Source: an uncultured Bacteroidales bacterium (GTDB lineage: Bacteria > Bacteroidota > Bacteroidia > Bacteroidales > F082). Taken from it: DNA of 64,000 nucleotides. The notes beneath the pieces are model-generated. The model was not told the origin of the DNA. It ran no database searches and was given only the letters and a program-made list of their open reading frames with translations. Position numbers and translations under genes: made by a program. Position 1 is the stretch's first letter. Each line of letters starts with the position of its first letter. The stretch is taken from NCBI GenBank assembly GCA_947303335.1, contig CAMYYB010000005.1, forward strand, positions 1-64,000. The letters run 5' to 3'. This document shows, piece by piece, positions 22,801-64,000 of the stretch.

Positions 22801-25800
22801 CCTCCACATCGCTGATGCTCGGGTTTCCTATGACCTTGATGGAATGGAAGTATTCCTTTCCATCGACGATGCCTTTCCTGACCTTCTCCGAATAGATGTA
22901 GTTGAGATGTACATTGCTGTTGGGCACGTTCATAGCCTCGTTGCGGCGTTGCTTCACCTCCACGAGGTCCTCCAATCGGATGTCGATATTGTTGATTTCA
23001 GGCCAGATGCCCTCTTTGTTAGTGTAGGGTGTTCCCCATGGGGTCACCTTCAAAGGCACCTCATATTCATAGTAGTTTTCTGTAAAGTCGGTACCGACAC
23101 GTAGGAAGACTGTGAGGTCTTGGTCTTCAAGAGGCTCTTCCTCGTGGGCAGCCTCAGCATGGACAAACATCTTTAGGTATTTGTATTGCCGTAAGTCGAA
23201 GTCGGTGGTCTTGTAGACGGCGCGTCCGTCGCCGTCGACGAGTTTCTGAACGGACAACTGCAGCGACTGCTCGTTGATGCGGGTTGTCTGCACTGTACCC
23301 ACCATCAGTTCTTGCTGGATGCCAGGTGGAATGACGTAGGGCACAGGTTCGCGCCGGCTGTTTTCATTGATGCTGACTGCCGAGATATCGAAAGTGGTCT
23401 CGTTGCTGTTGTCATTGGGTTGGTATTCACCAGGAGCTTGGATGCTTTGCGAGTAGGTGCGCCATTCTCCCTTCACCAAGTCGAGAGTGGCGAAACGCAG
23501 CACGATAGGCTTCTGGAAGTCTTTGACAAACATACGCATGAAGCGAATGGAAGAGTAATCGTCAATGTGCCCCACCACTTTGTCAGGCTGGCGGATGGGG
23601 ATACGGAACTGATACCAAGTGACACCGCCAATCTGTCCGTTGGGCAGCGAGACGTTGGTCGACTCAAAGATGTCGGCGATGTGGTTGCGGCCAATGACCA
23701 TCTTTGCAGGGTCGAGGTCGATGACGTATTGGTAGTAGCGTTCCGATTCACTCAGGGTGTTATCGTTGTTGAAGTCTTCAGCGTTGGGCAGGGTTGAGTT
23801 GCTTGTGGTATAGGTCTCGTTGCTCTGCTGTTGGTCGGAAGGTGAGTTGCCTTCGGGACCGTTATACTGCTTGTAACGGTAGAGGATGCTGCTGTATTTC
23901 GGGTCGCTCGACTGGTCCCATTCCGATGAACGGAAGTAGTGGTAATCGTCGCCCGAGGGGTCGCTGTAGGCGTTGATGTAGGCAGCGGAGCCTTCGCCAT
24001 AGCGGTTACGGATGTGATTCAGATAGGTGTCTTCAAAGAAGCTGCGCTCATCCTCGTTACGCAAACCATCGTAACCGATATCCTGGAAGGGACGTGCCGA
24101 CGACATATTGCTGAAGGTACCCACAAGGTCCTGCAAAGTGGGTACACGGCCCCAGATGGTGGTGTCGACGTTTTCGACCACTTCGGAGGTCGGCATACCG
24201 TTCTCGTAGAACTTGCGCCCGTCGCGGAGGAGGTCTTCTGATACGTCACCGAAATTGATGTAGAGCTTTCCGGGATTGTTCTGGTATTCCTCTTCCGAGA
24301 AGGGATCCATGAGCCAGAACTCGAGGTATTCGATGTTGGTGGCTTCAAAGTCGGTGGTCTCCATCTTGCGCATGATACCAGCCCATCGGCTTTGGGGATT
24401 ATTGAGTTTGCCGTCGGCATCAATACCGAAGGAGTAGGGGGTGGGGTCCACGTCATAGTTGTATGGTCCGCGTTCATCGGGGTAGTAGGCCAGGTTGAGT
24501 ACGCTCATATTGGTTTGGGTGCCAGTCTCGATGTCCTTGGTGGGATACAACTCAGTCTCCAACACTTGACGGACGCTGTTTTTCGACAGCTCCTCAGTGG
24601 TGATATTGCTTGGGCGATAGTTGTAGTAGCGGTCGTAGAAGATGTCATTGGCGATGACGTACCAAGCTAACTTGGCGCGGTTCTTACCGTAGTTGAGACC
24701 TGTGTTGGCGGCGGCTTCAGGGAAGAGGTCAGTCTGGTTTTGAGGTGTGCTGGCCAGGTTCCACATTGTGGGCAGGCGCAAATCAATGGTCGACTTGGCG
24801 CCCTCAAAGTCGTCGATATAGGAGGTGCCCGGCTCGCTGACTGAGCGCGACAGGCCTGGGATGAAACGGGCAAACTCACCATCGATGTTGATGCGTGAGG
24901 TAGCCTTGGTACTGATGCCCGGCAGTGCATTGATGGCAGTGGTCAGCCAACGGGCATCGGTGTGGTAGCTGATGTCAGCTCCGTAAATGGTGTTGGCGAT
25001 GGCCTCTTCGCCGTAGTTGATTTTTTGGGTATAAGAACGTTCACCTAAGTAAAGGACAGTACCGCCCAAGCGGAAGTCAGGGTTGAACTCATGCTCCACA
25101 CGGGTGCCGAGGAAGGTCTTCTTCAAGGCACTGAAGCCGCTGTTCGACTCTAAGGAGATATTGATAGGCGTGCCGCTGTTGAGGACTCCTTCGTTGATGA
25201 TGGTAACGCGACCTAAAGTGTAGTCAACCGTGTAGTCAACATTCTCGACGAGTTGTGTGCCTCCTGCCGTCACTGTCACAGAGCCTTGCGCCACGTTCAT
25301 GGCATTGAGGCTGATTTCGCTGCCCGACTGCGACGAATAGAAGCCGTTCAGGCTGAATTTGTTCTTCTCCGAATATTGTTCCGCTGCGGTCTTTGTCATC
25401 GTGTAGAGCGAGTCATAGGCGTATTTGTTGGCCAGGTCAGGCTCGTTGGGGAAGATTTTGTCGCGTATGTGTTTGCCGAAAGGCTCCAGCACGGGGAAGA
25501 AGATGCGTCCATTGGCCGAGTTGATAGTACCGCCTTGGGTGGCTGCATTATCCAAGAAGTCAAACACACCGTCGCCGCCTGCTACGGGATTGTTTTGTGT
25601 GGTCAGGTTGTCGAGTCCCATAAGATGGAGCAACGAGACACCTTTCGCCGAGCCTTCAGTGAAGTAACCTATCGGGGTGCTGTTTGAGTTGCCATTATAG
25701 AAGATGTACATCATGAAGTCCTGCGACCCGACCTGATAGGCCCTGAAGTTGTACACGTTCTTCATCATCAGGTTCCAGATGGGCATCTTGGTGTTTACCG

Positions 25801-43422: not shown

Positions 43423-43455
43423 AGGTGGGACAACAGTCCGTTCTGTTCGGTTGGA

Positions 43456-48407: not shown

Positions 48408-51400
48408 TTACTCCTTGACCAGCTTTTTGGTGGTAATACCGTTGTCGGTGACGACTCTCAGCAGGTAGGCACCGGTGGCTTTGTCGCCGAGGTTGACCTG
48501 TATATGGTCGTTCTCGACCTCCTCAGAGAGGATGACTTGTCCGTAGGTGTCCATCACCTCAATCTTTCGGATTCCTACGCCTTCGACGTTAAAGACACCC
48601 TTCGATGGGTTGGGATAGACATAGGCGGGAACTATTAGGCTGTCGTCTGTGCCCATCGCGCCGAAGTGCAGGGTGACAGGCTCGGTCAGTGTGCCTTCCG
48701 TTCCATCCGTCTTGTACGTGACGAGGTTTTCAGACCAGCTCAAGTCGTGTCCGTTGGTCAGCACGAAGTGCAGGTGCTCGGCCTGGTCGCCGAAGGCGAG
48801 CAGGAAGGCTACATAGCGGTCGAGCGGCTCAATGTACATCAGCTTGACGCTGCCTCGGCACTCGTCGCCGACGAAGGCAGCCAGTTCGTAGTCCTCGGAG
48901 CGGAGCTCGGTGCCTTCCACCTCCACCACAGCAGTGATGAGCATGTTGTCGGCATAGTTTTCGTCGGCTGGGACGAAGACATTGTCGTAAGGCGAGAGGT
49001 TAGGCTTGAGTTCCTCGTTGTCACGAATGGTCGGGTAGACCAGCGTCTTGGGCATGTTGTTGCTCGACTTGTACATGTAGCCCTGTCCGGGTTCAAGGGT
49101 GTTCAGAGTACCGTACCACATGCTGTTGGAGCCGTTGGAGAAGTAGGTCGCCGACTGGCTCCTGCCCTTGATGATGTCGTCGGCATCCGGCGTGAAGCCG
49201 CTCAGGGCCGTAGCGACAGACATGCTGTGGGTGGAGATGAAGCCAATCCAATTCCATCCGTTATTGATGGTGATGGGGTGGTCCTCCGGCTGGGCCATGT
49301 CGCCTGTAATCACGACGTCGCAAGGTGCGCTGGTGCGGATTTTGAACATCTGCTCGTTGTTGATGGCGGTGAGTCCTCCGTACCAGCTGGTGTTGCCTTG
49401 GTAGGTGTAGCTGTCGACACTGGCGTTCTTGCCCTGGATGCGGATGCCTGATGCGCCGAGGCTGTTCTCTAACATCTGGAGTCCGTTGATGCCTGACTGC
49501 TCGATGTAGGTGCTCCACCAACTCCATCCCGAAGAGATGGGAAGGCTGTGAACTAGCTGGAAGTGTGCCACGAAGTCGGCTGCCTCAGTCACCGTGAACT
49601 CATAAATGGCCTCGGTGGAAACCACGTTATCGTCCAAGGTCCAGTACATGAACTGGAAGCCGTTGTTGGCGTAGGCGGTGAGGGTGCAGGAAGCGCCGAT
49701 GGCGTAGGTGCCTGCGCCGTCAACCGTGCCGGCCCCTACTGGGTCAACCGTGGCGGTGATGTCAACCGTAGAGGTGAAGTTAGCCTCAAAGGGTTCGGAC
49801 AGTAAGCCGTAACCATCCTCGGTGAAGGGCACGCAGGCAGGAGGTGTCAGGTTGAGTTCCTGCTCAATGCTGTGGTCGTAGAGCCTGAAGGACAGCTCAT
49901 GCCCGTTCTCGCCAAACATGTTGACATAGACGATGTAGCGCTGTGTATACTCGAATAAGGAGGCGATGGCTGTACCGCGGCACTCGTCACCGCAGAAGAT
50001 ACCGAGTTCCAGCATGTCAGACCGCTGCTCGACCCCATCAATCAGGATGACGGCAACGATGGCAGAGGTCTGCGAGTAGAGGTTCTCGCTGCATGGTGTC
50101 CAGTAGGTGGTGAGTTGCCCTTGGTCTTCGAAGTTGGCAACAAGCTCCCTATTGCCCGTCACAATAAAGCTGTATTGGGTATCGGTACTGATTACATTGC
50201 CGTTCTCAGTCCAGTTGACGAAAATGTAGCCCTCGTTGGCCGTAGCTATCAACGTGCAGGTTGTACCATAGTCGTAAGTATCCGCGCCGCTCACCGTGCC
50301 GCCCTCAGTCGGGTTGGCCGTGGCTGTAATCTCGTAGCTATAGATGGAGAAGACCGCCTCCAAAGTTCTATCTTCGGTTATAGTGAAGGAGAAGGAGGTG
50401 CTGGTGCTGACCACATTGCCGTTCTCAGTCCAGTGGACGAAGGCATAGCCCGCATTAGCTGTTGCTGTCAGTGTGCAGGTCTCGAAGTGATTGTAGATAC
50501 CTGCACCAGTGATGATGCCGCCCTCAGTGGGTGAAGCCGTAGCGGTGATTTCGTAGCTGTTGAGGCTGAAGTTAGCCACCAGGGTTCTCTCTCCTGTCAC
50601 TGTGAAGCTGTAGACAACATTGGTGCTGACCACATTGCCGTCCTCGGTCCAGTTGACGAAGGTGTAGCCTTGGCTGGCTACTGCCGTCAGCGTGCAGGTC
50701 TCAAAGTGGTTGTGGATACCTGTGCCGTTGATGGTACCGCCTGCCTGTGGGTTGGCAGAGGCAGTGATTTCATAACTGTTGAGGCTGAAATTGGCCACCA
50801 GGTTCCTGTTGCTGCTCACGGTGAAGCTGTATTGGGCATCCGTGCTGACTACCTCATCACCCTCCGTCCAGTTAACGAAGGTGTAGCCCGTGTTGGCAGA
50901 GGCCATGACGGTGAAGGTGGAGCCGTAAGTGTAGTTACCCTCGAAGGATACCGTACCGCCGTTGGTCGGGTTGGCCGATGCGGTGATGTTGTAGCTGTTG
51001 ATGGAGAATACCGCCTCCAAAGTCCTTTCGCTTGTGACGGTGAAGGTATAGGTGGCGTTGACAGAGACCACCAAGCCGTTCTCTTTCCAGCTGACGAAGG
51101 TGTAGCCCGTGCTGGCTGTTGCCGTCAACGTGGCAGTTGCGCCATAGCTGAAGACACCCATGCCGTTGACGGTGCCGCCCTCTTCGGGACTGGCGTAGGC
51201 ACTGACCTCATAGCTGTTGAGGCTGAAGTTGGCCACTAAGGTCCTGTCGTCAGTCACAACGAAGCTGTATTGGGCATCGGTGCTGACCACCTCGCCCTCT
51301 TCTGTCCAATTGACGAAGGTATAGCCCGTGTTGGCTGTTGCTGTCAGTGTGGCGGTGGAGCCGTAGGTGTACGGGCCTGTGCCGGTGATGGTACCTCCCT

Positions 51401-54400
51401 GTTCGGGAGAGGCAGAGGCAACAATCTCGTAGCTGTTGAGGCTGAAGTTGGCCACCAAGGTTCTGTCACTTGTCACGGTGAAGAAATATTCGGCCTCCGT
51501 GCTGACTATCGAGTCGTTCTCCGTCCAGTTCGTGAAGGTGTAGCCTCCGTTGGGGGTCGCTGTCAAGAGACAGGTGCTGCCTTCAGTGTACGCACCCATG
51601 CCAGTAACGGTACCGCCTTCGGTCGGGATGGGCGAGGCTTCAATGTTGTAGGAGATGAAATTAATATTACGAATCAAACGGACACTATGCCCGATAGGAT
51701 GTAAGGAGTTGCTACAAACATTGTAAGACCCATAGCTCATGCTAAAGTAAATGGTGTACACACCTGCCCAATCTTGTTTTGTAGCAGACCAATACTCACC
51801 GGATTCTCCGATACTACCTAGTTCAGTTCCCCATCGGTTTCCTGCTGCGGGTAGAAAAACAACTCCATTGGTCTCAAGCAAATTTGTCCAATCATCAAGG
51901 CTAATAATATTACTGTCATATTGGGCAGTTCCTGCATTTGCATTGTTGAAAGTGTAAATATGCGTAGACCAATTGTCGGGCAATATGATTAATCCATTTA
52001 CATTATTAACTCTGGCTTTGGCAAAACGGACACCTGAAGCAGTGACCCGCAAGTTAAACAAATAATCCCATTCGGCATTGGTCGGGGTGCGCCAACCGCA
52101 ATGTTCAGCATTGCCTCCATTAATGATAGCATTGTAGCCCCAATCGGCTTGTCCTGTTTGGTCATTAAGATCATAATCTGGTGAGCCGTAAGCAAAGAAA
52201 TCACTTGTGTTAGAGAGGACTGTTTCCCAAGGTTGGTAACGTAATGCTCCGTGATTATAGCCGCTTGTACCCCAAGCAAATAGGTCACGATCAGCATTTT
52301 CATTTTCGCTACCTTGGCCATTGTCCCCCAGGTATTCCCACTGATGTTCAGCGAATTTCCAGTAAGGCTCGGCGGCACTGCCGATGTACTGCAAGTTACC
52401 TTGCGCGAAATACACCAGCGAACCTTCGCCTACCGAGAACAGACCGTTGATGGCACCCGAAGGCGCTTCGGCCTGAACCTCGAAGTTGACCACTAAGGTC
52501 CTGTTGCCTTCTACAGTGAAGGTGTAAACGGGATTGGTGGAGACTATCGAGTCGTTCTCCGTCCAGCTCACAAAGAGGTATCCTTGGTTGGGGGTAGCTG
52601 TCAAGGTGCATTCGTCACCCAGATGGTAACCGCCAGTGCCGTTCGCAGTTCCACCTTCTTCGGGGTTCGCTTCAGCAGCGATGCTGTACAAACCTAAGCT
52701 GGCACCGAAACGCTCGACGTCGATGCTGTGGTTATAGGCAATCTCCTCGGGCGTCAGCGTCCTGTTGTAGATACGGATGCAGTAGATGCTGTCGTTCCAT
52801 CCTCTTTCCTCCATAAAGCTATTGCCGAAAACGACGGTTTGATCAGAGTTGACGCCGTTGGGAATATTGCTGATGTTGGTCTTCCAAACGCCGTTCAGGA
52901 AGGAACCGTTGAACCTCGTGTAAGAAACCGTGGCGACTTGGTCGTCGGCTTCAGTTACGGGCAACTGGCCCAAGGTCTCCATTCTTTCATCTACCTGGTC
53001 GTTTTGGAAATTCGTGCCATCCTCATTCCAGTGCCAACCTGCCAGCCCTCTCCATGTTGGCGTGGTCCTGTCGCAATCGATATAGGTGACAATCTCAATG
53101 GTGATGTCGTTGTTCAACGAGTTGAAATATCTCCAAGTATGCCCAGTGTTGAGGTATCCCCCGTTGCCAAGTCCTATGAAGTGGTTGTCTTCCCAAGTGT
53201 AGGACGCATAGCCATTTACCGTCAGGTCATAGTTACCCACCAAGTCTTCCCAGACCGTGGTTGTGGTGGAATGCCCGTCTCTGGTGTTCAGAATGCCGTC
53301 TACGTGCATGATTAAGCCATCCGAAATATAGTCAGGTGGATTATAGACGGCAAAGTTGGCTCTATAGGTTGCGGCTTCGGTTACAATGAAGCTGTAGGTG
53401 GCTTCGGTGGAGACCACCGAGTCGTTCTCCGTCCAGTTCACAAAGGTGTAGCCTTCGTTGGGGGTTGCCGTCAAGGTGCATTCGGTACCCACAGGGTATC
53501 CGCCGCCACCACTCACAGTTCCTCCTTCCTCGGGGTTCGCCTCGGCGATGATTTGGTACACTCCGTAGCCGAAACGCGCCATGTCGATGCTGTGGTTGTA
53601 GGCTATCTCCTCAGCCGTCAGCGACCTGTTGTAGATACGGATGGCATAGATGCTGTCATTCCATCCTCTCTGCTGCATGTAGCTGTTGCCAAAGACGGCT
53701 GTTTGGTTGGAATTGATACTGTTAGCAATATTGTCGTTATTGGTTCTCCACTCACCATTCAAGAAAGAACCATGTCTCGTCGTAAAGGTTAATGTGGCGA
53801 CTTGGTCGTCGACTTCAGCTACGGGCAGCGAACGCATGGTTTCCATCCTTCCGCTTCCTTGTTCGTTTTGTATCGCAACGCCATCGCTACCTACATGCCA
53901 ACCGGCCAAACCTCTATAGGCTGGAGAGGTCTTGTCGCAATCGATGTAGGCGACAATCTCAAGGGTGAAATCACCGGTCAACGATTTAAAATACTTCCAT
54001 GGCTTTCCGGTATTGAGGTATCCCCCGTTGCCAAGTCCTATGAAGTGGTTGTCTTCCCAAGTGTAAGAGGAATAGTTGTTTACCGACAGGTCATAGAAGC
54101 CTACCAGGTCTTCCCAGACATCCGTTTCGTCAGAGTGTCCGTCACGGGTGTTCTGGATGCCGTCCACTTGCATGATGAGGCCGTTAGAGACATAGTTGGC
54201 AAATGCGGGATTGAAGGCATAGAAGGTGGCCACATAGTTGGCATTTTCGGTAACGGTGAAGGTAATGCTGGGGTTTTCGGAGACCACCTCGCCGTTCAGC
54301 GACCAGTTGAGGAAGAGATATCCCTCATTGTTGGTGGCTGCGATGGTGCAGCTGGCGCCGTGGGTGTAGGTACCGCCGCCATCCAGTGTTCCAGCGCTGC

Positions 54401-57400
54401 CGATGTTGCTCGACAGGTTGATTTGGTACTGGTTCAATTCGAAGTTGGCGATGAGGTTGCGCTCTTCTTGAATAATGAAGGTGTATTCGGTATCGGTGCT
54501 GACCACTTCGCCGTTCTCTGTCCAGCTCACAAGATGGTAGCCTGTGTTGGCGGTGGCTTCCAACGTGACGGTGTCGCCTTCATAGTAGGTGCCTGCGCCT
54601 GTTACGGTGCCGCCCTCTTCGGGCAACACCTCTACGAGAACATCGTAGAAGGCGTAGGGCGAGGTCACGGAAAGCAGGGCGGCTTGCGAGCATTGCGTTC
54701 CGCAGCCTCCGTTCACGGCACAGCGATACTGGTTGCCGTTCATGCCGATGGTGACACCATTAACTTGCAGCGTGTTGGTGTTCACGCCGGCGTACATCAC
54801 ATCGTTGGATAGGTTGCTCCAGGTTGCTCCCTGATCTTCGCTCAATTGCCAGACGTAGGTCAGGTTGCTGCCAGTGGTGCCGATGACAAAGCTGGTGCTT
54901 TCACCTTCAAGAACGACTTGGTTTTGAGGCTGTTCGTCAATGGTGAAGTTGACGGGTCTCACTACGATGCTGCCGTTGGTGAAGGTGGAGGGGATAATCT
55001 CGCCCGACTGGGTGGCATATTCGCAGATCGTCGTATTCCAGTTCAGTGCTGAGCTGCCTTGGTCGCCTGTGAACTTGACCCAAAGCAGTGTGCCATTGCC
55101 GATGTTGGCACCCGAGGCTGACATCCAGGTGGCGTAGACCACACCATCGTTGGCATTGAGTTGCAGCTCTCCGTTGTTCAAGTGGTAGTTGACTCCCTCA
55201 TAGCCCGCGTAGGTCAGAATGTCGGGGTTGTAAGCCAGCGCTAAGGAGAAGGCACCCACACCGTTGAAGTTGGTCACGCTGATGGGGATGCTGAACTCAG
55301 TCTCTGAGCAAGTGGTCATCGAGCCGATTGTGGTGTTGATGGTGGGGATGAAGTGATTCACCGTGAGCTTGGCACTGTTGGATATGGCTTCGGGATCGCA
55401 TCCGCCGCTTACCACGCAATGGTAGCGATAACCATTCATCGCAAGGGTGGCGTTGGTGATGGTCATCGTCGACGATGTGACATTGCTGTAGAGGCTGCCG
55501 TTGATCAGGTTAGTCCACGTCAAGCCGTCATCCTGGCTCACCTGCCATTGGTAGCTGATGGAATAGCCGCCTGCACTGACGGAGAAGGTGGTGTTCTCAC
55601 CCTCGATAATGCTGCGGTTGACGGGGTGGCTGTTGATGTAAGGGGCTGACTGTATGGTCGCCGTGCCGTTTTGGTAGGTCGTCGGGAAGAGCTGGCCTTG
55701 CGTGCTGGCGTATTCGCAGCGGTCGGTAACCCAGGTCAGGTTGGCGTTGCCGGGTGTTCCAGTGAACATCAGCGAGAGCAATCGCCCGTTGCTAAATGTG
55801 GCGCCGCCAACCGACATCCATGAGATGAAGATCTTGCCTCCGTCTTCATTGACCAACAGCGTGCCGTTTGACAAGGCTGTATTCACGTTCTCATAGCCTT
55901 CGTAGGTGAGCAACGTACTGTTGTAGGTCAAGGTCAAGGAGACTGAACCGACACCCGTGAAGTTGTCGACGAGGAGGTCGGCATCAAACACCACATCCTC
56001 GCATGAAGTCACGCTGGACAGCTGTGAGTGAATGGTGGGTAGGAAGGGAATCACGTGCAAAATACCGGCGTTGGAGTAGGCGGCAGGGTCGCAGGTGCCA
56101 GTCACCTGGCAGCGATAGCAGTATTGGTCCATTCCGCTGGTCACGTTGGAAACGGTCAGGGTTGCCGAGTTGACGTTGCTGTAGTGTGTTCCGTTGCTCA
56201 GGTCGTTCCACTGCACGCCGTTGTCCGTGCTCTCCTGCCATTGGTAGGCGATATTTGTTCCGCTTGCACTGACGCTGAAGGTAGTGTTGTTGCCTTCATC
56301 GATGGTGCGGTTGGAAGGATGCGAGGTAATGGTAGGGGCATAATAGACGGTAGCCGAACCCGAGGAGAACGTGGTGGGGAAAATGAGTCCCGTGGGGGAG
56401 CTGTATTCGCATTGTGAGGTGTTCCAAGTGAAGTTGGAATTGCCTGATACCGACTCAAACTTCAGGTTAAAGAGGTCGACATTTCCAATGTTCAAGTTGG
56501 CTTGTTGGGCAATCCATACGATGTAGACGACACCGTTGTCCGCATGAATCTTCAGCAGTCCGTCCTCGAGTCCGGGGTTGACGTTGTCATAGCCCAAGAA
56601 AGTCACCATGTTGGCGTTGTAGTTCAGCGCCAAGGAGATGGAACCCACGTTGTTGCAGTTGGTCACCGAGACGGGGATACTGAACTCTGTGGAAGGGCAT
56701 GAGGTGATGGCTCCTGCTGTGGTGTGGATGGTGGGTAGCAAATCGTTCACCATCAACAGGGCGGCATTGGAATAGACCATCGGGTCGCAGGTGCCCGTCA
56801 CTTGGCAACGGTAACGATTACCATTGAAGTTCAGGGGTGTCGAGGTGATGCTCATCTGTGAGGTGGTCACATTATTATAAGGTGTGCCGTTGTTCAGGTT
56901 GCTCCACGTTGTTCCGCCATTGGTGCTCACTTGCCATTGGTAACTGAGACCAGTACCGGTGGCACCGACAGAGATGGTGGCGTTTTGCCCTTCCGTCACA
57001 GTGATGTTATTAGGCTGTGAGGTGATGGTGGGCACCGAATACACTGAGACGGAGCCGTTGGTGTAGGTGGAAGGAATCACATTTCCGTAGGAATCGCTGT
57101 ACTCGCAGCTTGCGGTGTTCCACGTCAAGGCTGAGGTGCCGTTGATGCCTTCGAAACGGAACTCGATAAGGGTCTCATTGCCGAAGTCCACGGCGTTGAG
57201 CGAGAACCAGGTGAGGTAGACTGTGCCCCCCGATGCGTTCACATGCAAGTTGCTACCGAAGTGCGAACTGGCGTTTTGGTAGCCTATATAGGTCACTTTA
57301 CTGGCATCGTAGTTCAAGGCGAGGCTGATGGCTGATACGCCGTTGCAGCTGGCTACCGTGATGGGAATAGCGGATTCCGAGCCTGGGCATGTCGAGCCAC

Positions 57401-57491
57401 TGCCCGCGAAGGTGTCGATGGTGGCATGGGCCACCACCGGCATCACGGCGAACAGAAAAGCGACAATGATGTTTATGATTTGTTTTTTCAT
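48408..57491 (-). CDS. Giant T9SS protein with four cohesin-like/Ig-like pairs and twelve InlB-like repeats
   Basis: This 3027-aa secreted protein has a signal peptide (IINIIVAFLFAVMPVVAHA). Residues about 25-945 hold four units, each a cohesin-like domain (for example GSISLALNYNANMVTFLGY, GNVDLFNLKFESVSGNSNFTWN) followed by an Ig-like domain (ITSQPNNITVTEGQNATI, YQWQVSTNGG). Two InlB-like repeats follow, then two LamG-like domains (about 1095-1305 and 1385-1597, each ending IRIYNRSLTAEEIAYNHSID-like) split by repeats. A formylglycine-enzyme-like/FISUMP-type domain (about 1679-1940, GWRTPTNAEWDYLF) precedes seven tandem InlB-like repeats (about 1945-2454), a GDECRG module, one more repeat, the GWNWW module (about 2650-2815), a second GDECRG module and a type A sorting domain (VYPNPSKGVFNVEG to LVKE). 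It overlaps the stop of the upstream gene by 4 bases. Probably a scaffold or adhesin. Confidence 0.88.
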   Translation of the reverse strand: MKKQIINIIVAFLFAVMPVVAHATIDTFAGSGSTCPGSESAIPITVASCNGVSAISLALNYDASKVTYIGYQNASSHFGSNLHVNASGGTVYLTWFSLNAVDFGNETLIEFRFEGINGTSALTWNTASCEYSDSYGNVIPSTYTNGSVSVYSVPTITSQPNNITVTEGQNATISVGATGTGLSYQWQVSTNGGTTWSNLNNGTPYNNVTTSQMSITSTPLNFNGNRYRCQVTGTCDPMVYSNAALLMVNDLLPTIHTTAGAITSCPSTEFSIPVSVTNCNNVGSISLALNYNANMVTFLGYDNVNPGLEDGLLKIHADNGVVYIVWIAQQANLNIGNVDLFNLKFESVSGNSNFTWNTSQCEYSSPTGLIFPTTFSSGSATVYYAPTITSHPSNRTIDEGNNTTFSVSASGTNIAYQWQESTDNGVQWNDLSNGTHYSNVNSATLTVSNVTSGMDQYCYRCQVTGTCDPAAYSNAGILHVIPFLPTIHSQLSSVTSCEDVVFDADLLVDNFTGVGSVSLTLTYNSTLLTYEGYENVNTALSNGTLLVNEDGGKIFISWMSVGGATFSNGRLLSLMFTGTPGNANLTWVTDRCEYASTQGQLFPTTYQNGTATIQSAPYINSHPVNRSIIEGENTTFSVSAGGYSISYQWQVSQDDGLTWTNLINGSLYSNVTSSTMTITNATLAMNGYRYHCVVSGGCDPEAISNSAKLTVNHFIPTINTTIGSMTTCSETEFSIPISVTNFNGVGAFSLALAYNPDILTYAGYEGVNYHLNNGELQLNANDGVVYATWMSASGANIGNGTLLWVKFTGDQGSSALNWNTTICEYATQSGEIIPSTFTNGSIVVRPVNFTIDEQPQNQVVLEGESTSFVIGTTGSNLTYVWQLSEDQGATWSNLSNDVMYAGVNTNTLQVNGVTIGMNGNQYRCAVNGGCGTQCSQAALLSVTSPYAFYDVLVEVLPEEGGTVTGAGTYYEGDTVTLEATANTGYHLVSWTENGEVVSTDTEYTFIIQEERNLIANFELNQYQINLSSNIGSAGTLDGGGTYTHGASCTIAATNNEGYLFLNWSLNGEVVSENPSITFTVTENANYVATFYAFNPAFANYVSNGLIMQVDGIQNTRDGHSDETDVWEDLVGFYDLSVNNYSSYTWEDNHFIGLGNGGYLNTGKPWKYFKSLTGDFTLEIVAYIDCDKTSPAYRGLAGWHVGSDGVAIQNEQGSGRMETMRSLPVAEVDDQVATLTFTTRHGSFLNGEWRTNNDNIANSINSNQTAVFGNSYMQQRGWNDSIYAIRIYNRSLTAEEIAYNHSIDMARFGYGVYQIIAEANPEEGGTVSGGGGYPVGTECTLTATPNEGYTFVNWTENDSVVSTEATYSFIVTEAATYRANFAVYNPPDYISDGLIMHVDGILNTRDGHSTTTTVWEDLVGNYDLTVNGYASYTWEDNHFIGLGNGGYLNTGHTWRYFNSLNNDITIEIVTYIDCDRTTPTWRGLAGWHWNEDGTNFQNDQVDERMETLGQLPVTEADDQVATVSYTRFNGSFLNGVWKTNISNIPNGVNSDQTVVFGNSFMEERGWNDSIYCIRIYNRTLTPEEIAYNHSIDVERFGASLGLYSIAAEANPEEGGTANGTGGYHLGDECTLTATPNQGYLFVSWTENDSIVSTNPVYTFTVEGNRTLVVNFEVQAEAPSGAINGLFSVGEGSLVYFAQGNLQYIGSAAEPYWKFAEHQWEYLGDNGQGSENENADRDLFAWGTSGYNHGALRYQPWETVLSNTSDFFAYGSPDYDLNDQTGQADWGYNAIINGGNAEHCGWRTPTNAEWDYLFNLRVTASGVRFAKARVNNVNGLIILPDNWSTHIYTFNNANAGTAQYDSNIISLDDWTNLLETNGVVFLPAAGNRWGTELGSIGESGEYWSATKQDWAGVYTIYFSMSYGSYNVCSNSLHPIGHSVRLIRNINFISYNIEASPIPTEGGTVTGMGAYTEGSTCLLTATPNGGYTFTNWTENDSIVSTEAEYFFTVTSDRTLVANFSLNSYEIVASASPEQGGTITGTGPYTYGSTATLTATANTGYTFVNWTEEGEVVSTDAQYSFVVTDDRTLVANFSLNSYEVSAYASPEEGGTVNGMGVFSYGATATLTATASTGYTFVSWKENGLVVSVNATYTFTVTSERTLEAVFSINSYNITASANPTNGGTVSFEGNYTYGSTFTVMASANTGYTFVNWTEGDEVVSTDAQYSFTVSSNRNLVANFSLNSYEITASANPQAGGTINGTGIHNHFETCTLTAVASQGYTFVNWTEDGNVVSTNVVYSFTVTGERTLVANFSLNSYEITATASPTEGGIITGAGIYNHFETCTLTATANAGYAFVHWTENGNVVSTSTSFSFTITEDRTLEAVFSIYSYEITATANPTEGGTVSGADTYDYGTTCTLIATANEGYIFVNWTENGNVISTDTQYSFIVTGNRELVANFEDQGQLTTYWTPCSENLYSQTSAIVAVILIDGVEQRSDMLELGIFCGDECRGTAIASLFEYTQRYIVYVNMFGENGHELSFRLYDHSIEQELNLTPPACVPFTEDGYGLLSEPFEANFTSTVDITATVDPVGAGTVDGAGTYAIGASCTLTAYANNGFQFMYWTLDDNVVSTEAIYEFTVTEAADFVAHFQLVHSLPISSGWSWWSTYIEQSGINGLQMLENSLGASGIRIQGKNASVDSYTYQGNTSWYGGLTAINNEQMFKIRTSAPCDVVITGDMAQPEDHPITINNGWNWIGFISTHSMSVATALSGFTPDADDIIKGRSQSATYFSNGSNSMWYGTLNTLEPGQGYMYKSSNNMPKTLVYPTIRDNEELKPNLSPYDNVFVPADENYADNMLITAVVEVEGTELRSEDYELAAFVGDECRGSVKLMYIEPLDRYVAFLLAFGDQAEHLHFVLTNGHDLSWSENLVTYKTDGTEGTLTEPVTLHFGAMGTDDSLIVPAYVYPNPSKGVFNVEGVGIRKIEVMDTYGQVILSEEVENDHIQVNLGDKATGAYLLRVVTDNGITTKKLVKE
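50130..51655 (-). repeat. Seven tandem InlB-like B-repeat units (coding)
   Basis: Seven units of about 71 residues (about 213 bp) lie head to tail inside the 3027-aa gene. Each has the pattern SYEITA-ANP-EGGT--G-G-Y followed by TLTA-A--GYTFVNWTE-G-VVSTD--YSF-V---R-LVANF. Neighbouring units are very similar in DNA as well, so unit number may change by recombination. Confidence 0.85.
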
Positions 57492-60400
57492 TTTACAACG
57501 ATTTTAACGATTTGCACGTCTTCACGGTTGCCAGAGATGGCGAGACGACCCATATAGATACCGAAGGCCAAGCCGCTCAGCTCGATTTCGTGTTGCCCTA
57601 AGCTTTGGACTCCAAGTTCAACGGCTTGCACAGTGTTGCCCAAGAGGTCGTAGATGCAGAAGGTGACACGACCTTCGGTGGGCAGGTTGTAGCGCACCAC
57701 GCTGCGGTCGCCCATCGGGTTGGGATAGACGGACAGACCAAAGATGTCGTTTTCATCCAGACCTTCATAGCCAAGGGTAATGAGTTCAGGCATGGTGAGG
57801 GTCACGTTGCTGAGGACTTGGGCGCTGCCGTCGGTGAGTTCGGAACGGTTGTCCAAGCTGAAGGTGATGGGCTCATTCAGGTTGAAGATGTCCTTGGTAC
57901 GGATGCCAAGGGTAAGCATGAGGTCGTTGTTGGAGAGCAGCATCGGGTCGAGGCTGTACCAGCTGATGGTGACTTGTCCTTCGTTGTCGTAAATCATGGC
58001 TTCCTCGCCGTTGGGCAGCAGGACTCGCTCGACACTGAGGTATTCGGCAGGATAGTTCAGTTTCAGTGAGATAGCACCCGCCTCTATGGCGTTTTCAACG
58101 CTTACAGGGATGTCATAGTAATGGTTAGGACCGACGAGAATCTGTCCATCGCTGAGCAAGTTGATGCCATCGCGTAGCATTTGATAGCTGGCGTTGACAT
58201 CGCCGTAGGCGAGAGCTGTCATTGTCAGGTCGGTGGCATAGAGGCCGTAGTTGAGGCTGTCGTACAAGCTGTAGTACATGTCACCAACAGGCATGGTCTC
58301 AATTTGATGGACATAGCGTTTTTGGATAAAGAGGGCATCCGTGCCGTTCACCGTTCCGCTGCCATTGACATCGGCGATGGTGAGGCGGTGACCACTGAGC
58401 ATGGTCTCATGTACATAGTGCAGCATGACAGCTAAAGCATCGGCAGTGGTGATGGTGCCTTCCACATCCACATTGGGGGTGAAGTCCACTTTTCTGGCAC
58501 CGCCAGTCATGTTTTCGATGGCGAAATGTCCTGTAGCATCCGTAGTGGTCTGGTAAAGCACTTCGTCGTCAAAGTTCTTCACCATCACGGTGCTGCCCGG
58601 CATGGTGTAGTCGGGATTGCCATCATAGAGCAAGGTGCCGGTGAGGGTATGGCCTGCAACAGGCAGCATGGAGACCGGGAAGGCATTCACACGACCACGC
58701 CAACCATTGTCAATTCTGTCGTATATTGAGCTTTCGATGAAGAGGCTGTCCATGGTGCCGTAGAAGTTGTAGCTCATGTCAATGTCGTTGCCGCCGTCTT
58801 GATAGATGGCCCAATTGTTGTTGAAGAGGATATCATTGGCGTTTTCAGGGCTGCCGCCAAGGATTGGGGTGGCATTGTCGCTCAAATAGACACCACATAA
58901 GGTGTTGTGGTGGAAACTGCAAAGCCTGACGGTGGGCGAAGCGTAATTGACAAACGATGCACCTCGGTCTGCGGCAAGTCTGAATTCACAATTCTCAAAG
59001 AGGACATTGCTCGTGTTGTTAACATAAACATTATGTGTGGAACCCTTCTCAAAAATACAGTGCTTGAGCGAGGAGGGAGCGGTGTAACTATAGAAAGCTA
59101 AACAGTTCCATCCACCTATTGCGCCGTTGGTTGAGGTAAAGGTGATGGGAGCTTCCTCTGTGCCTTCGGCTATGAGGCTGCCATAGTAATCATTCCAGCT
59201 CACTTGCATATATCTGCCTGGGGCGAAATGAAGGGTGGCACCAGGGCAAAGGGTAAGACGGGCGATGTCGCTGGTATTTTCGGCGCGAATCCAGAAATGA
59301 TCGTCCGTAACATAGTAGTCGTAGCCGCCCCATGTGCGTTGACCATAGAGGGTGCCGCCGTTGATGGCGATGCCATCATATTGGTTGCCATTGAAGCTCA
59401 GGTTGACCATGTTTTCACCATGGATATATTCAGGACTGTTGAAGCGCATTCCGTAGTTGTTGGAATTATTGAACGCGCAGTCCTCGAAGCGGGTGTTGTG
59501 GGTGTTTTCTACATACACATTGTAGCTATCACCTTTTTCAAAAATGCAGTGCTTGAGGGAAGAGGGCGAAGTGTACCCATAAAAGCGCAATCCAAACCAT
59601 CCACCTGTCTCACCATTGAGTGAGGTGAAGGTGATGGGATTCTCTTCGGTGCCTTCAGCAATAAGTCTGCCATAGCGTTCAGATACGCCAACTTGCAACC
59701 ACATTCTGGACGAAAAGCGTAGGGTAGCCCCAGGAGAAAGAGTGAGGATGGCAGTGTCGTTTGAGTTTTCACCACGGACATCGATATCACCCAATATAAA
59801 ATAGTCGTAGTCGTTCCAAATGCGTTGGCCATAAAGGATGCCACCATTGATGGCGATACCGTCGTATTGGTTATTGTTGAAGCTCAGATTGACCATGTTT
59901 TCACCATGGATGTAATCAGGACTGTTGAATCGCATTCCATAATTGTTGGAATTATGGAACGCGCAGTCCTCGAAATGGGTTTTTCTTGTGTTTTCAACGT
60001 ACACATTATAATCATTGCCTTTCTCAAACACACAATGCTTGAGCAAAGAGGTCTGTGCGCCTTCATAGAAACGCAAACCTTCCCATCCTCCAATCTCGCC
60101 GTTGAGCGAAGTGAAAACAATAGGAGTCTCTTCGGTGCCTACAGCAGAAAGTTTGCCTTTGTATGCCCATCCATAGGACCAGTGACTTATCCGCAAATGT
60201 TTGCCTTGGGCAAAACGCAAAGTGCTGCCGGCTTCCAGAGTGAGTTGGGCAGTGTCGTATGCGTCCCAGTCAGAATACACATAGAGGTCGCCATATACAC
60301 CATATTCGTTGGCTCCCCAGCTGCGGTTTCGGACATTGCCTTCATTGAGGCCTACAGGCGAAGTCACATTGTTGAAGGTGATGCTGCTGTTGACGGAATA

Positions 60401-63124
60401 GTTCGGGATGTTCATGTTGGGATTGAGGTAGCGTACGCCAATGTTGGAATTGTTCATGTTGCAATAGTAGAACTCCACATGGTTGTTGTTTCCATCAACC
60501 CTCACGCAGCAGTTGCTGCAGTTGTCGAAGGAGGTCGCAACCAAGTTAGCCGAGGAATTATCCCATAGGCTCAATCCGACGGGGCAGTCGCGGGAGGCCA
60601 CACCATCGATGTCTATTGAAGAACTGCGGGTGAGTTCAATGTTGTAGTTGACGCCCTGTCTCACCGTGCTGTACATCAGACTGGGTTGGGAGGTGTACTC
60701 GCTGTAGATGTTTGTGGTAGCCTTTTCAATGATGCAGTAGCGTAAAGAGGAAGCCGCGTTGCTGTCGCTGGCATCGAAGAAGCGGAATCCGTACCAACCG
60801 CCCACTGCCCCGTTTTTTGGGGTAAAGGTGATACTGTCGGTAACGGTGCCTACGGCAAGGATGCCACCTCCGTGAATTTGGATTTCAGTATCGGGATTCA
60901 TACGAATGGTATTGCCAGGAGCGATGGTGAGAGTGGGCCGGTTGTCGCCGTCCACCCAAATGGTGCCAGTAACCCAATAGCCGTTGTCGTAATAGTTCCA
61001 CGTGCGGTTTGAGTAGATTCCTCCACCAGGCATACGGATTTCGATGTCGTTGTCGTAAAGTGCCAGGGTGCTTTCGTTATAAACAAAGCTACGGTCGGGG
61101 GTGCAGGAATAGATACCGAAATTATTGTTATGGGCTGCGCAATTGGTAAAGGTGGGGAAACAGTTGTCACGGAAATAGATGGCGTAGTCGGAGTTGGTCA
61201 TCACGCAGGAGGTCATTGCAGGTGTGGATGAGGTGATATCAAGGGCGTTCTTTACATTGTCGGTAATGGTGCAGTTAGTGAATGTTACACGCTCGTTTTC
61301 ATAAAATCGAATGCCATGATATAATGAGCCAGTAAAAGTACAGTTGGTGAAGGTGATTTGGTTGCAATAATTGAGAAACAGGTTGGCTTGGTTGTCACCA
61401 TAACCGGCGTTCTCAATGGTGGTATAGTTAATAGAAGATTTATGGCCTTCATAAGCACCACCGTAGTGATCCCAATATTCACCTAAAAATCTCACGCCCT
61501 TCCATCGTTTTTGGTCGGCATTCGCGTAGGTTAATAGGATGGGGTGTTCTTCTGTGCCATTGAAATTGACGCATGCACCGTAAATGGTCAGTCCCGTGTT
61601 CTCTTGGAAATAGATTTCCACACCGGCTTCCACGTTGTGGATGCCAGTGGTGAAGGAGATGTCCCCGGTAACTATGTAGGGGCTGCTTCCCAAGGAAATG
61701 GTGCTGAGGTTATTAAGATTGCCAGCCAACTGGGTGTAGCCGGTAATGATGGCCTGGGCTTCTTCTATCGCCAAGTCGTCGGTACCAGTGGCAGTCATGC
61801 GGAGCATATACTGGATAGCCGAAACGGTTTGGTTGATGGTGACGAGTCCGTTGGAACCGCCTGAAATCCAGTTGCCGAAGTTCGAGTTTGCGTCAGCTAT
61901 GCGGTACAGCACCTCGTAGGAAGTGGCGTTGCTTTGGCTCAGGATGAAGTTCAGATCCTGTACGTTCTTCATGGGGTTGCCTATATCGAAAGGCTTGGAG
62001 ACATAGCAGGACTTTTTCACCTTGCTGTCGCCAGTGGCAATCGGGGCGTAGCGCATATAGTTGACGATGCTGCCTGAGAGGACTTGTCCACCGGAGTAGA
62101 ACATCTTGTCGCCGAAGGCGCAGGAGGCTCCAGAATGGGTGCGTACCGAGAGGACTGCAGTTGAGGTGGTCCAGCTGAGGCTGCTGTTGTCCATGTAAGT
62201 GTAGTAAATCTGGTTGCTGGGCAGGTCGGTAGTCATACCACCGATGACGGCAAGGAAGCCGTTGGTACACACGGCGCTGTGGCTGCTGAGGGCAACAGGC
62301 AGAGCGGTCTGAGCGGCCCATGAGCTGAGGCTGCCGTTGAGATTGACACTGGCACGGTACACCGTGTTCTTCAAGTCACCCGTAGCATCGTGTCCACCAA
62401 TGACGTAGATTTTCGAGTCGTAGGTGGCTACAGCGTGTCCGTTACGAGCGGCTGGCAGGTTGGATACCTCACTAATGGAGGCGACGGTGCCGCGAGCGTT
62501 CAGCCTGAGGCAGTACACCTTGCTGCTTGCAGCTGTTTCATCGTCAGTGTTGGCACCGCCAATCAGGTAGATATTGTCATGAACGGCGATGGCTTTAGCA
62601 CCCCACAAAGGTTGGGGGAGTTGGACTGAAGCCTCGTTCCATTCGCCTAAGTTGCCGTTGAGCGGGTCGATGTAGGCGACATAAATTTTGTCGCTGACTC
62701 CGTCTTCGTTCTTGCCGCCCATGACGATGAGGTTTTGCTGGGTGGCAACGACGGCAGCATGGGTCAAGCCGACAGGAAGGCTGTTCATGGTAGTCCAGGA
62801 GGAAATACCAGAGGTTTGCTGAGTGGCGCGGTAGACGTTGTTAATGGCCTCGGTGCCGTTATAACCGCCTACGCAGAAGACGTAGGTCTGCCAGGTTACT
62901 ATTTCATGGTTCATCAAGGTTTTAGGCAGGTTGGTAGTGCCTTCAAAGTTGTTGATGCCCGTCATAATGGATTGCAAGGAGACTTGGTCGTCTGCAATGA
63001 TGACGTTCTGTCCGGTTCCACGCTGGAACTCGGCGGTGGTGGTCTGGGTCAAGGTGACCTGAGCCATGCTCACTGAGGCGAAGGCCATCAGGAGGGCTGC
63101 GATGAGTAAGGGTTTGTGTTTCAT
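57488..63124 (-). CDS. T9SS protein with Kelch propeller, beta-helix, dockerin-like and cohesin-like domains
   Basis: This 1878-aa secreted protein has a signal peptide (PLLIAALLMAFASVSMA). Residues about 55-360 contain Kelch-type propeller repeats (YVFCVGGYNGTEAINNVYRA, NLIVMGGKNEDG, IYVIGGHDATGDL). Residues about 470-1480 form a right-handed parallel beta-helix with right-border repeats (SSLKHCIFEKG, FEDCAFNNSNNYGMRF). A carboxypeptidase-regulatory-like unit (about 1500-1547) leads into a dockerin-like pair of calcium loops at about 1547-1606 (NVDVEGTITTADALAVMLHY and ADVNGSGTVNGTDALFIQKR). A cohesin-like domain (about 1636-1775) and a type A sorting domain (VYPNPMGDRSVVRYNL, about 1798-1878) complete it. 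The ATGA overlap with the 3027-aa gene and 22-base gap to the upstream gene show one operon. Function is probably structural or adhesive. Confidence 0.87.
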   Translation of the reverse strand: MKHKPLLIAALLMAFASVSMAQVTLTQTTTAEFQRGTGQNVIIADDQVSLQSIMTGINNFEGTTNLPKTLMNHEIVTWQTYVFCVGGYNGTEAINNVYRATQQTSGISSWTTMNSLPVGLTHAAVVATQQNLIVMGGKNEDGVSDKIYVAYIDPLNGNLGEWNEASVQLPQPLWGAKAIAVHDNIYLIGGANTDDETAASSKVYCLRLNARGTVASISEVSNLPAARNGHAVATYDSKIYVIGGHDATGDLKNTVYRASVNLNGSLSSWAAQTALPVALSSHSAVCTNGFLAVIGGMTTDLPSNQIYYTYMDNSSLSWTTSTAVLSVRTHSGASCAFGDKMFYSGGQVLSGSIVNYMRYAPIATGDSKVKKSCYVSKPFDIGNPMKNVQDLNFILSQSNATSYEVLYRIADANSNFGNWISGGSNGLVTINQTVSAIQYMLRMTATGTDDLAIEEAQAIITGYTQLAGNLNNLSTISLGSSPYIVTGDISFTTGIHNVEAGVEIYFQENTGLTIYGACVNFNGTEEHPILLTYANADQKRWKGVRFLGEYWDHYGGAYEGHKSSINYTTIENAGYGDNQANLFLNYCNQITFTNCTFTGSLYHGIRFYENERVTFTNCTITDNVKNALDITSSTPAMTSCVMTNSDYAIYFRDNCFPTFTNCAAHNNNFGIYSCTPDRSFVYNESTLALYDNDIEIRMPGGGIYSNRTWNYYDNGYWVTGTIWVDGDNRPTLTIAPGNTIRMNPDTEIQIHGGGILAVGTVTDSITFTPKNGAVGGWYGFRFFDASDSNAASSLRYCIIEKATTNIYSEYTSQPSLMYSTVRQGVNYNIELTRSSSIDIDGVASRDCPVGLSLWDNSSANLVATSFDNCSNCCVRVDGNNNHVEFYYCNMNNSNIGVRYLNPNMNIPNYSVNSSITFNNVTSPVGLNEGNVRNRSWGANEYGVYGDLYVYSDWDAYDTAQLTLEAGSTLRFAQGKHLRISHWSYGWAYKGKLSAVGTEETPIVFTSLNGEIGGWEGLRFYEGAQTSLLKHCVFEKGNDYNVYVENTRKTHFEDCAFHNSNNYGMRFNSPDYIHGENMVNLSFNNNQYDGIAINGGILYGQRIWNDYDYFILGDIDVRGENSNDTAILTLSPGATLRFSSRMWLQVGVSERYGRLIAEGTEENPITFTSLNGETGGWFGLRFYGYTSPSSLKHCIFEKGDSYNVYVENTHNTRFEDCAFNNSNNYGMRFNSPEYIHGENMVNLSFNGNQYDGIAINGGTLYGQRTWGGYDYYVTDDHFWIRAENTSDIARLTLCPGATLHFAPGRYMQVSWNDYYGSLIAEGTEEAPITFTSTNGAIGGWNCLAFYSYTAPSSLKHCIFEKGSTHNVYVNNTSNVLFENCEFRLAADRGASFVNYASPTVRLCSFHHNTLCGVYLSDNATPILGGSPENANDILFNNNWAIYQDGGNDIDMSYNFYGTMDSLFIESSIYDRIDNGWRGRVNAFPVSMLPVAGHTLTGTLLYDGNPDYTMPGSTVMVKNFDDEVLYQTTTDATGHFAIENMTGGARKVDFTPNVDVEGTITTADALAVMLHYVHETMLSGHRLTIADVNGSGTVNGTDALFIQKRYVHQIETMPVGDMYYSLYDSLNYGLYATDLTMTALAYGDVNASYQMLRDGINLLSDGQILVGPNHYYDIPVSVENAIEAGAISLKLNYPAEYLSVERVLLPNGEEAMIYDNEGQVTISWYSLDPMLLSNNDLMLTLGIRTKDIFNLNEPITFSLDNRSELTDGSAQVLSNVTLTMPELITLGYEGLDENDIFGLSVYPNPMGDRSVVRYNLPTEGRVTFCIYDLLGNTVQAVELGVQSLGQHEIELSGLAFGIYMGRLAISGNREDVQIVKIVVK
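57520..58250 (-). repeat. Duplicated cohesin-like plus sorting-domain segment, copy 1
   Basis: About 730 bp at the 3' end of the 1878-aa gene are closely matched by 63170-63920 at the 3' end of the next gene, with long runs of identity around the GVRTK/KDIFNL block and the VYPNPM block. A segmental duplication of the C-terminal module is the simplest explanation. Confidence 0.8.
59020..60120 (-). repeat. Tandem coding repeats of about 487 bp in the beta-helix region
   Basis: Three successive units with a period of about 486-492 bp, aligned at the SSLKHCIFEKG codons (about 59039, 59531 and 60018). Long stretches are nearly identical, for example around GTTTTCACCATGG at 59411 and 59897. They encode repeated right-handed beta-helix turns of about 162 residues. 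Confidence 0.75.
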
Positions 63125-63146: not shown

Positions 63147-64000
63147 TCATTTCACGATGATTTTCACGATTTGTACTTCTTCGCGGTTACTCGAGACGGT
63201 GAGACGGCCCATGTAGATGCCGGAGGCCAAGCCGCTCAGTTCGATTTCGTGCTGTCCGATGCTTTGTACACGGGTTTCAAGGGTCTGCACCGCATTACCC
63301 AAGAGGTCGTAGATGCAGAAGGTGACACGACCCTCAGTGGGCAGGTTGTAGCGCACCACGCTGCGGTCGCTCATCGGGTTGGGATAAACGGACAAGCCAA
63401 AGTTGCCGTTTTCATCCAGACCTTCATAGCCAAGGGTGATGAGCTCAGGCATGGTGAGGGTCACGTTGCTGAGGACTTGGGCACTGCCATCAGTCAGTTC
63501 GGAACGGTTGTCCAAACCAAAGACGATAGGCTCACTCAGGCCGAAGAGTTCCTTGGTGCGGATGCCGAGGGTGAGCATGAGGTCGTTGTCGGAGAGCAGC
63601 ATCGGGTCGAGGCTGTACCAGCTGATGGTGACTTGTCCGTCGTTGTCATAGATCATGGCTTCCTCTCCGTTGGGCAGCAGGACTTGCTCGATGCTGAGGT
63701 ACTCGGCAGGATAGTTCAGCTTCAGCGAGAGGGCACCGGCCTCCAAGGCATTCTGGACGCTCACAGGGATGTTGTAGCGCTGGTCGGGTCCGATGAGGAA
63801 TTGCCCTTCGCTGAGCAAATTGACACCATTACGCAGCACTTGGTAGCTGGCATTGATATCGCCGTAGCAGAGGGCGGAGAGAGTGAGATTGGGTGTATTA
63901 AGGTTGTTATCAATAGTGTCGTATTCGTAGTGCAAGTCGCCTGCGGGGAAGGACTCAATCTGGTGGACATACCTCTTTTGAATATAGAGGGCGTCGGTGC
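63147..64000 (-). CDS. C-terminal part of a T9SS protein with dockerin-like and cohesin-like domains (cut by window edge)
   Basis: The visible 284 residues start inside the second dockerin-like calcium segment (TDALYIQKRYVHQIE, 63936-64000). They continue with GDINASYQVLRNGVNLL, a cohesin-like domain (GALSLKLNYPAEYLSIEQVL, VTISWYSLDPMLLSDNDLMLT) and a type A sorting domain (LSVYPNPMSDRSVVRYN to VQIVKIIVK). It is a close copy of the end of the 1878-aa protein, about 80 percent identical by eye. The frame runs through the right edge, so the start and N-terminal domains are unknown. It is the first visible gene of the operon, 22 bases before the 1878-aa gene. Confidence 0.88.
   Translation of the reverse strand, partial: TDALYIQKRYVHQIESFPAGDLHYEYDTIDNNLNTPNLTLSALCYGDINASYQVLRNGVNLLSEGQFLIGPDQRYNIPVSVQNALEAGALSLKLNYPAEYLSIEQVLLPNGEEAMIYDNDGQVTISWYSLDPMLLSDNDLMLTLGIRTKELFGLSEPIVFGLDNRSELTDGSAQVLSNVTLTMPELITLGYEGLDENGNFGLSVYPNPMSDRSVVRYNLPTEGRVTFCIYDLLGNAVQTLETRVQSIGQHEIELSGLASGIYMGRLTVSSNREEVQIVKIIVK

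Follow-up and report, generated by a model that had tools for sequence, protein, structure and literature searches.

The genome of a bacterium related to rumen Bacteroidales (2.66 Mb, 71% complete) carries three neighbouring minus-strand genes, A, B and C, which probably encode a T9SS-delivered, non-cellulosomal cohesin–dockerin assembly at the cell surface, with the dockerins of A and B docking on the cohesins of C. The genes lie in the window, that is, the whole 64,000-nucleotide stretch of DNA analysed here. Gene A is upstream of B, B is upstream of C, and the three genes look co-transcribed; gene A extends past the window edge. Features and their coordinates are listed in Table 1.

Table 1. 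Positions of the operon features and of SprA in the window, with the supporting evidence
Feature	Position	Strand	Evidence or content
Gene C	48408..57491	-	3027 aa; (cohesin-Ig)x4, InlB B-repeats, T9SS type A sorting domain
Cohesin unit 1 of C (res 24-152)	57036..57422	-	Pfam 30.4 bits; AlphaFold2 pLDDT 97.7 and Foldseek to cohesins
Ig-like domain 1 of C (res 153-250)	56742..57035	-	Ig_3 stretch; edges set by adjoining cohesins
Cohesin unit 2 of C (res 254-384)	56340..56732	-	Pfam 22.6 bits, under cut-off; A4 profile E 6.7e-52 (unit 2 is a row of A4)
Ig-like domain 2 of C (res 385-482)	56046..56339	-	Pfam Ig_3 at 386-464
Cohesin unit 3 of C (res 486-615)	55647..56036	-	Pfam 16.6 bits, under cut-off; phmmer with unit 1 E 1.2e-23
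Ig-like domain 3 of C (res 616-713)	55353..55646	-	Ig_3 stretch; inferred boundary
Cohesin unit 4 of C (res 717-847)	54951..55343	-	Pfam 34.4 bits
Ig-like domain 4 of C (~res 850-941)	54669..54944	-	Ig_3 stretch; inferred boundary; beyond the span of the preliminary description
T9SS type A sorting domain of C	48417..48620	-	PF18962 48.4 bits; TIGR04183 41.5 bits
Gene B	57488..63124	-	1878 aa; Kelch, beta-helix, X-like, dockerin, cohesin, sorting domain; 4-nt overlap with gene C
X-like small beta domain of B, N-terminal to dockerin	58481..58654	-	CarboxypepD_reg/SdrD_B-like, under cut-off; strands in predicted model
Dockerin of B	58316..58471	-	PF00404 29.7 bits (genome search), 23.9 (whole protein); cut-off 22.9
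Cohesin of B (res 1656-1785)	57770..58159	-	
T9SS type A sorting domain of B	57527..57730	-	Sorting-domain profile searches
Gene A, 3' part	63147..64000	-	Full gene 63147-67823, 1558 aa counted from first Met; Kelch, beta-helix
Gene A dockerin	63975-64115	-	Profile searches
Gene A cohesin	63564-63797	-	Profile searches
Gene A sorting domain	63153-63389	-	Profile searches
SprA, T9SS outer-membrane translocon	19841..27340	-	TIGR04189 2451.5 bits

Gene C encodes a multi-cohesin, non-catalytic chain, in which Pfam found neither an enzyme domain nor a carbohydrate-binding module. The four cohesin and Ig units of the preliminary description were confirmed by per-domain Pfam scans, phmmer, shuffled sequences and four Pfam Ig_3 stretches. 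Its span (54960-57430) takes in all four cohesins and only three Ig domains, the fourth Ig domain reaching ~54669, and its cohesin motif is fair as a consensus and inexact in some units. Pfam Cohesin (PF00963, cut-off 24.1 bits) was the sole match of each unit when the units were scanned singly, with units 1 and 4 above the cut-off and units 2 and 3 below it; orthologs of gene C reached 72.2-93.9 bits (7/7 scanned). When hmmscan was run on the entire chain (3027 aa), Cohesin did not appear among the matches with E up to 10; the single-domain scans and the genome search picked it up, and the per-domain result is preferred here. Unit 1 retrieved the other three units by phmmer (E 1e-23 to 8e-35). 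The A4 cohesin profile, of which the four units are themselves rows, scored the real units at 151-172 bits against a best of 5.9 bits in 500 shuffles of the gene C protein.

When aligned, the four units had 63% mean column identity, with invariant columns that include C12, S33, L34, G47, Y48, W72, W101, C106, E107 and Y108. The cysteines at unit 1 positions 12 and 106 are shared by the four units and by most of 17 same-genus rows, and may form a disulphide. Each unit of gene C was best matched by the unit of the same rank in a relative, L096 (76, 58, 56 and 60% identity, against 33-49% for non-matching units), and this unit-by-unit correspondence indicates that the array is old.

Structure prediction and fold search of the first unit, as proposed in the preliminary description, returned a cohesin jelly-roll and not another fold. 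AlphaFold2 modelled unit 1 from 33 aligned rows with a mean pLDDT of 97.7 and a pTM of 0.90, and Foldseek against the PDB gave 86 rows at E up to 0.001. The best 50 of these 86 were all cohesin chains by title, a few of them multi-module; the top match was 6kgc_A (E 2.3e-12, TM 0.90, rmsd 1.9, 24% identity), and rank 6 was 2xdh, a non-cellulosomal archaeal cohesin. The 33-row profile, searched against the PDB, matched only cohesins at E up to 10, five sequences in total; the four-unit profile alone gave weak cohesin matches mixed with unrelated ones. With unit 1 as the modelled case, a cohesin fold is supported for the gene C domains. One crystallised pair, 6KGC-6KGF, has chains matched by the B dockerin region as well as chains matched by the cohesin profile.

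Two dockerin-bearing candidate partners were found in the same operon, as the preliminary description had suggested, one of them running past the window edge. A and B are Kelch-beta-helix proteins with the C-terminal order dockerin, cohesin, sorting domain. In A, the dockerin family PF00404 scored 23.7 bits in the genome search and 18.4 bits as a whole protein (cut-off 22.9). Judged by the usual ligand positions of calcium loops, loop 2 of the dockerin is canonical; loop 1 is acceptable by eye in B and degenerate by eye in most of 21 B orthologs. The X-dockerin-cohesin fragment of B was predicted with a pLDDT of 87.3 and a pTM of 0.83, with four helices in the dockerin part. Among the best 50 VIA-align rows listed for this fragment, 49 were cohesins and one was an integrin; these rows cover essentially the cohesin alone, so that the X-like and dockerin parts were barely probed by fold search. 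Foldseek also listed pilins, with poor TM.

The view of A and B is corrected in one respect: they are not recognisable plant-wall enzymes, and each has its own sorting domain and its own cohesin. Pfam matched no glycoside hydrolase, lyase or esterase domain in A and B. An N-acetylneuraminate epimerase model matched B at 45.9 bits (cut-off 45) over part of its Kelch-type profile and was outscored by a general model for Kelch (93.7). The epimerase and mutarotase models of NCBIfam were far under cut-off.

All three proteins carry the TIGR04183 sorting domain (C 41.5, B 27.7 and A 38.2 bits; cut-off 23). The source genome has 131 sorting-domain matches, of which 120 are above the cut-off. The type A sorting domain agrees with the earlier assignment of gene C to the T9SS, and from it we infer export. 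As A and B each bear a sorting domain, neither needs C as its anchor. SprA is present; in this 71% complete genome, PorU had partial matches only (best 32.6, cut-off 420) and PorV two matches below the cut-off (57.6 and 44.6; cut-off 90). Large genes lie beside SprA (28204-46149 of the window), including a cleaved-adhesin protein with a sorting domain, a BspA-type LRR protein and a C10 peptidase with an inhibitor propeptide; by eye, they have modules in common with the end of gene C. A plus-strand frame of 543 aa (46307-47938), IS transposase-like by eye, sits between the cohesin operon and the next large exported-type genes.

As far as the genome is sequenced (71% complete), the operon holds a closed set. 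A Pfam family search found dockerins in two places, A and B, and a profile search found six cohesins, namely four in C, one in B and one in A. Across 149 genomes of the family, Pfam Cohesin was found in 47, Dockerin_1 in 64 and both in 36, a co-occurrence with a Fisher p of 1.7e-8, uncorrected for kinship. The two domains lay less than 10 kb apart in 27 of the 36 genomes, always on the same strand (27/27), and less than 600 bp apart in 13 of those 27, a spacing that means they are partly in one reading frame.

Gene neighbourhoods were compared in 40 regions from the family survey and 19 found by the A3 dockerin-cohesin profile in named genomes, with six loci dropped as repeats of one MAG (L096, L098, L099, L101, L102 and L106). 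Since loci were selected for having a cohesin or a dockerin, their rates differ from those of random genomes, and the broad cohesin profile was iterated on the same loci on which it was scored. Thirty-two genes had a dockerin plus a sorting domain, and in 25 of them the next same-strand gene has a cohesin; the 25 include source gene A, whose next gene is B, and five others with a single-cohesin next gene. Five more lie in a cluster near a cohesin-array gene (L062, L063, L064 and two in L090), and for the remaining two (L078, L083) a cohesin gene was not found in the fetched region. Dockerin genes without a detected sorting domain had a next-gene cohesin in 3 of 19 cases, four of the 19 having no next gene in the stretch.

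The B-C pair is also present in same-genus genomes. Weak Pfam cohesin matches in two genomes of the genus (G134, G091) were unconfirmed by the custom profiles, and a relative was not confirmed in the viral contigs searched. In other genera of the family, clusters of small genes with one, two or three cohesins were observed (L084, L087, L088, L094), the three-cohesin chain of L084 and L087 also bearing a dockerin. Frames of ~400-410 aa with a dockerin followed by a cohesin recur in several genera of the family (G019, G036, G046).

Across the order, with 393 genomes of 206 genera searched, the A4 cohesin profile matched 97 genomes and 66 genera, and the A3 profile matched 78 genomes and 58 genera; at most 7-10 candidates were scored per genome, and some A3 matches are the cohesin half only because A3 spans both domains. 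The B-C pair occurs in the Marinilabiliaceae isolates Natronoflexus pectinivorans (L103) and Alkalitalea saponilacus (L104), with Kelch and beta-helix in the B protein of L103 and four cohesins in both C proteins; the same operon is present in an environmental genome (L105). In a set of 20 regions inspected by eye, 13 had a dockerin-cohesin-sorting domain chain and then a four-cohesin gene at nearly the residues of the source, and L196 was a fourteenth, ending at the contig end. These 14 regions represent 11 families of the order, L194 being the Natronoflexus record again. The other six had different arrangements, such as cohesin-dockerin-cohesin on one chain. Regions were picked mostly for adjacency, so the set demonstrates that the pair exists and not its frequency. 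Judging from these sequences, the B-C pair is old. In some families (L193, L199 and L200), gene C had no detected sorting domain and a weak C-terminal dockerin-like stretch (16.8-20.7 bits, cut-off 22.9; 3/7 scanned), which could pair with the cohesin of B.

Dockerins also occur on chains without a detected cohesin. Two genomes of another family in the order are rich in matches (G242, 102 A3 and 65 cohesin matches; G343, 74 and 73), many of which, among those listed, span the dockerin half alone. Within 20 stretches from these genomes (L168-L187), 24 dockerin frames were read; cohesin was undetected in 21 of them, four frames being cut by the stretch so that a later domain could be missed. Seventeen frames stop at most five residues past the dockerin match. 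A sorting domain was found in one frame (L183), with a doubtful internal match in L187, and L186 combines two cohesins with a terminal dockerin. Of the 24 frames, 19 were scanned with Pfam, and these include three M14 carboxypeptidases, a C25 peptidase and two proteins resembling heparinase II/III. A GDVNxS-like motif ends many of these frames; in A and B the motif sits between dockerin and cohesin. Same-genus genomes have dockerin-ended proteins as well, namely gingipain-like C25 peptidases (L075, L082) and an S8 protease and a PAD-like protein (L080). The T9SS sorting domain was not found on these proteins, Pfam Cohesin gave nothing at E up to 0.01 in the three genomes, and the broad cohesin profile gave one weak match in a neighbour gene of L082. 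Carried by such varied proteins, the dockerin resembles a movable tag within the order.

In the reading that we favour, A, B and C would be T9SS cargo assembling at the cell surface through cohesin-dockerin contacts. The C protein, long and itself equipped with a sorting domain, would present four cohesins with the Ig domains as spacers, and A and B would display their Kelch and beta-helix heads while their dockerins dock on the C cohesins. The divergent cohesin of A and B could accept another dockerin, thereby linking the units as a network. The likely job would be to display or cross-link heads at the surface, for adhesion, for glycan capture or as a surface fibril, and not to hold cellulases. 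Points against this reading are the sorting domains that A and B carry themselves, the dockerin-cohesin tandem in both proteins, the degenerate first calcium loop in most B orthologs, C cohesins that are no more conserved than Ig1-3, the sub-cut-off PorU and PorV matches, and L078 and L083, where the fetched region lacked a cohesin gene.

Conservation within B bears on the choice of partner. The dockerin is its most conserved part (56% mean pairwise identity in 21 orthologs), which favours a partner outside the chain; the other parts reach 47% (Kelch) and 43 and 41% (beta-helix), both from fewer pairs because some B chains are short or cut, and 32% (adjacent cohesin), 31% (sorting domain) and 30% (X-like). 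The gap between dockerin and neighbouring cohesin weighs against the main rival reading, which we consider unlikely yet worth keeping in view: the A or B dockerin would pack on the cohesin of its own chain as a closed module beside the sorting domain, and the C cohesins would bind something else. Such packing would agree with the dockerin-cohesin tandem seen in A, in B and in the 21 orthologs aligned with B, with the close spacing in 13 family genomes and with the pTM of the B fragment, a value that allows internal packing. Of the 32 dockerin genes with a sorting domain, 14 have a detected cohesin on the same chain. None was detected on the remaining 18, among them the source genus's second type of dockerin, or on the 21 of 24 frames above; these chains speak against own-chain packing, although a diverged cohesin could be missed, and the 18 have room to hide one before the sorting domain. 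Own-chain packing also leaves the operon link to a multi-cohesin gene unexplained.

Excess conservation of the C cohesins over Ig1-3 was sought in 17 orthologs and not found (39-47% against 44-49%; Ig4 28%). This rough equality, and the scores of units 2 and 3 under the Pfam cut-off, would suit a purely structural stalk of cohesins and Ig domains, in which dockerin binding was lost or never present, and animal adhesion proteins offer a parallel, with cohesin and Ig and a dockerin undetectable in vertebrates in the part of the source consulted (PMC6030884). We rate the stalk as improbable, for the only dockerins detected in the source genome adjoin gene C and the pair recurs in other families.

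Docking of A and B on scaffolds of other rumen bacteria, with the cell riding on foreign cellulosomes, is very improbable. The A3 search did match Clostridia/Bacillota dockerins (33-48% identity over 47-57 residues), some from the rumen by title, but cohesins are available locally, and the same operon occurs in the cultured isolates, which we presume not to be rumen bacteria, and in another environmental genome (L103-L105). The least probable reading, a cellulosome in which C gathers plant-wall enzymes, has in its favour a multi-cohesin chain with no enzyme domain found and the marginal epimerase match, and is rejected because the only two dockerins found in the 71% complete genome are on proteins without a plant-wall enzyme domain, the general Kelch model outscores that match and Pfam shows no carbohydrate-binding module in C.

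Docking of A and B on C may also be the simple form of something larger. Tentatively, and with somewhat less confidence than for the operon itself, we suggest a widespread T9SS-built cohesin-dockerin surface system in Bacteroidales. In the expanded genomes (65-73 cohesin and 74-102 dockerin-cohesin matches), the dockerin would stand in for the sorting domain. Proteases, lyase-like proteins and others of a secreted type would then be retained at the surface by cohesin-bearing cargo that has a sorting domain, or might even be exported by it via the T9SS. If the dockerins bind, Bacteroidales would have a second route, beside a protein's own sorting signal, for placing proteins at the surface, and cohesin-dockerin assembly would reach far wider than plant-wall breakdown. 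This raises the question of whether cohesin-bearing T9SS cargo could export or anchor a folded partner without a sorting domain. Counting cohesins as evidence of cellulosomes in metagenomes would also need care.

The operon has in common with clostridial and ruminococcal cellulosomes the cohesin and dockerin folds, the top solved cohesin being CaCohA2 of Clostridium acetobutylicum (6KGC, TM 0.90). It differs in having no plant-wall enzymes in the set, no CBM found, T9SS sorting domains, a Gram-negative host and a dockerin loop 1 that is often degenerate. Work on non-cellulosomal modules was reportedly carried out by Peer et al. in 2009. Cohesins outside plant-wall breakdown are likewise found in Archaeoglobus fulgidus (2XDH) and ANME archaea, according to the part of PMC9012536 consulted, which cites earlier work for archaea that have such domains and lack large multi-cohesin scaffoldins; the genes described here differ from these archaeal cases in that one chain holds four cohesins and the operon is conserved. 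The TMEM132 family also combines cohesin and Ig in an extracellular protein with a proposed adhesion role, but, as far as the consulted part of PMC6030884 goes, these are animal proteins with one cohesin and an undetected dockerin partner.

Cohesins of Bacteroidota are easily missed. In the parts of the surveys consulted, one camel-rumen study has cohesins in Firmicutes_A bins only (PMC9177762), another counts them in two Bacteroidetes bins of its table (PMC6071333), and a cockroach study reports dockerins, the cohesin among its cells being confined to a genome of Christensenellales (PMC10266427). A description of the A-B-C operon was not found in the portions consulted of the literature on Bacteroidota cohesins, dockerins and the T9SS; the 2009 work of Peer et al. 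may hold an earlier mention.

The closest known system is that of Ca. Stygibacter (Cloacimonadota), for which the consulted part of PMC8542988 describes a cohesin scaffold, predicted to be anchored by the T9SS, together with enzymes that bear dockerins. Its scaffold resembles gene C as a very long non-catalytic tandem-cohesin protein with a T9SS-type sorting domain, and its dockerins are on exported proteins including a C25 peptidase, just as relatives of the source bacterium have dockerin-ended C25 peptidases. In that system the dockerins are on enzymes and the scaffold carries CBM2/CBM3 (PMC8542988, same part), whereas the partners in the present case combine Kelch and beta-helix, have sorting domains of their own and belong to a Bacteroidales operon of two or three genes with Ig spacers. 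The expectation that a T9SS-based assembly of this kind would be unusual needs correcting, given that prediction and the A4 cohesins in 97 of 393 genomes of the order. A T9SS-anchored cohesin scaffold as such has already been predicted in Cloacimonadota, and the operon described here is a variant with Kelch-beta-helix partners.
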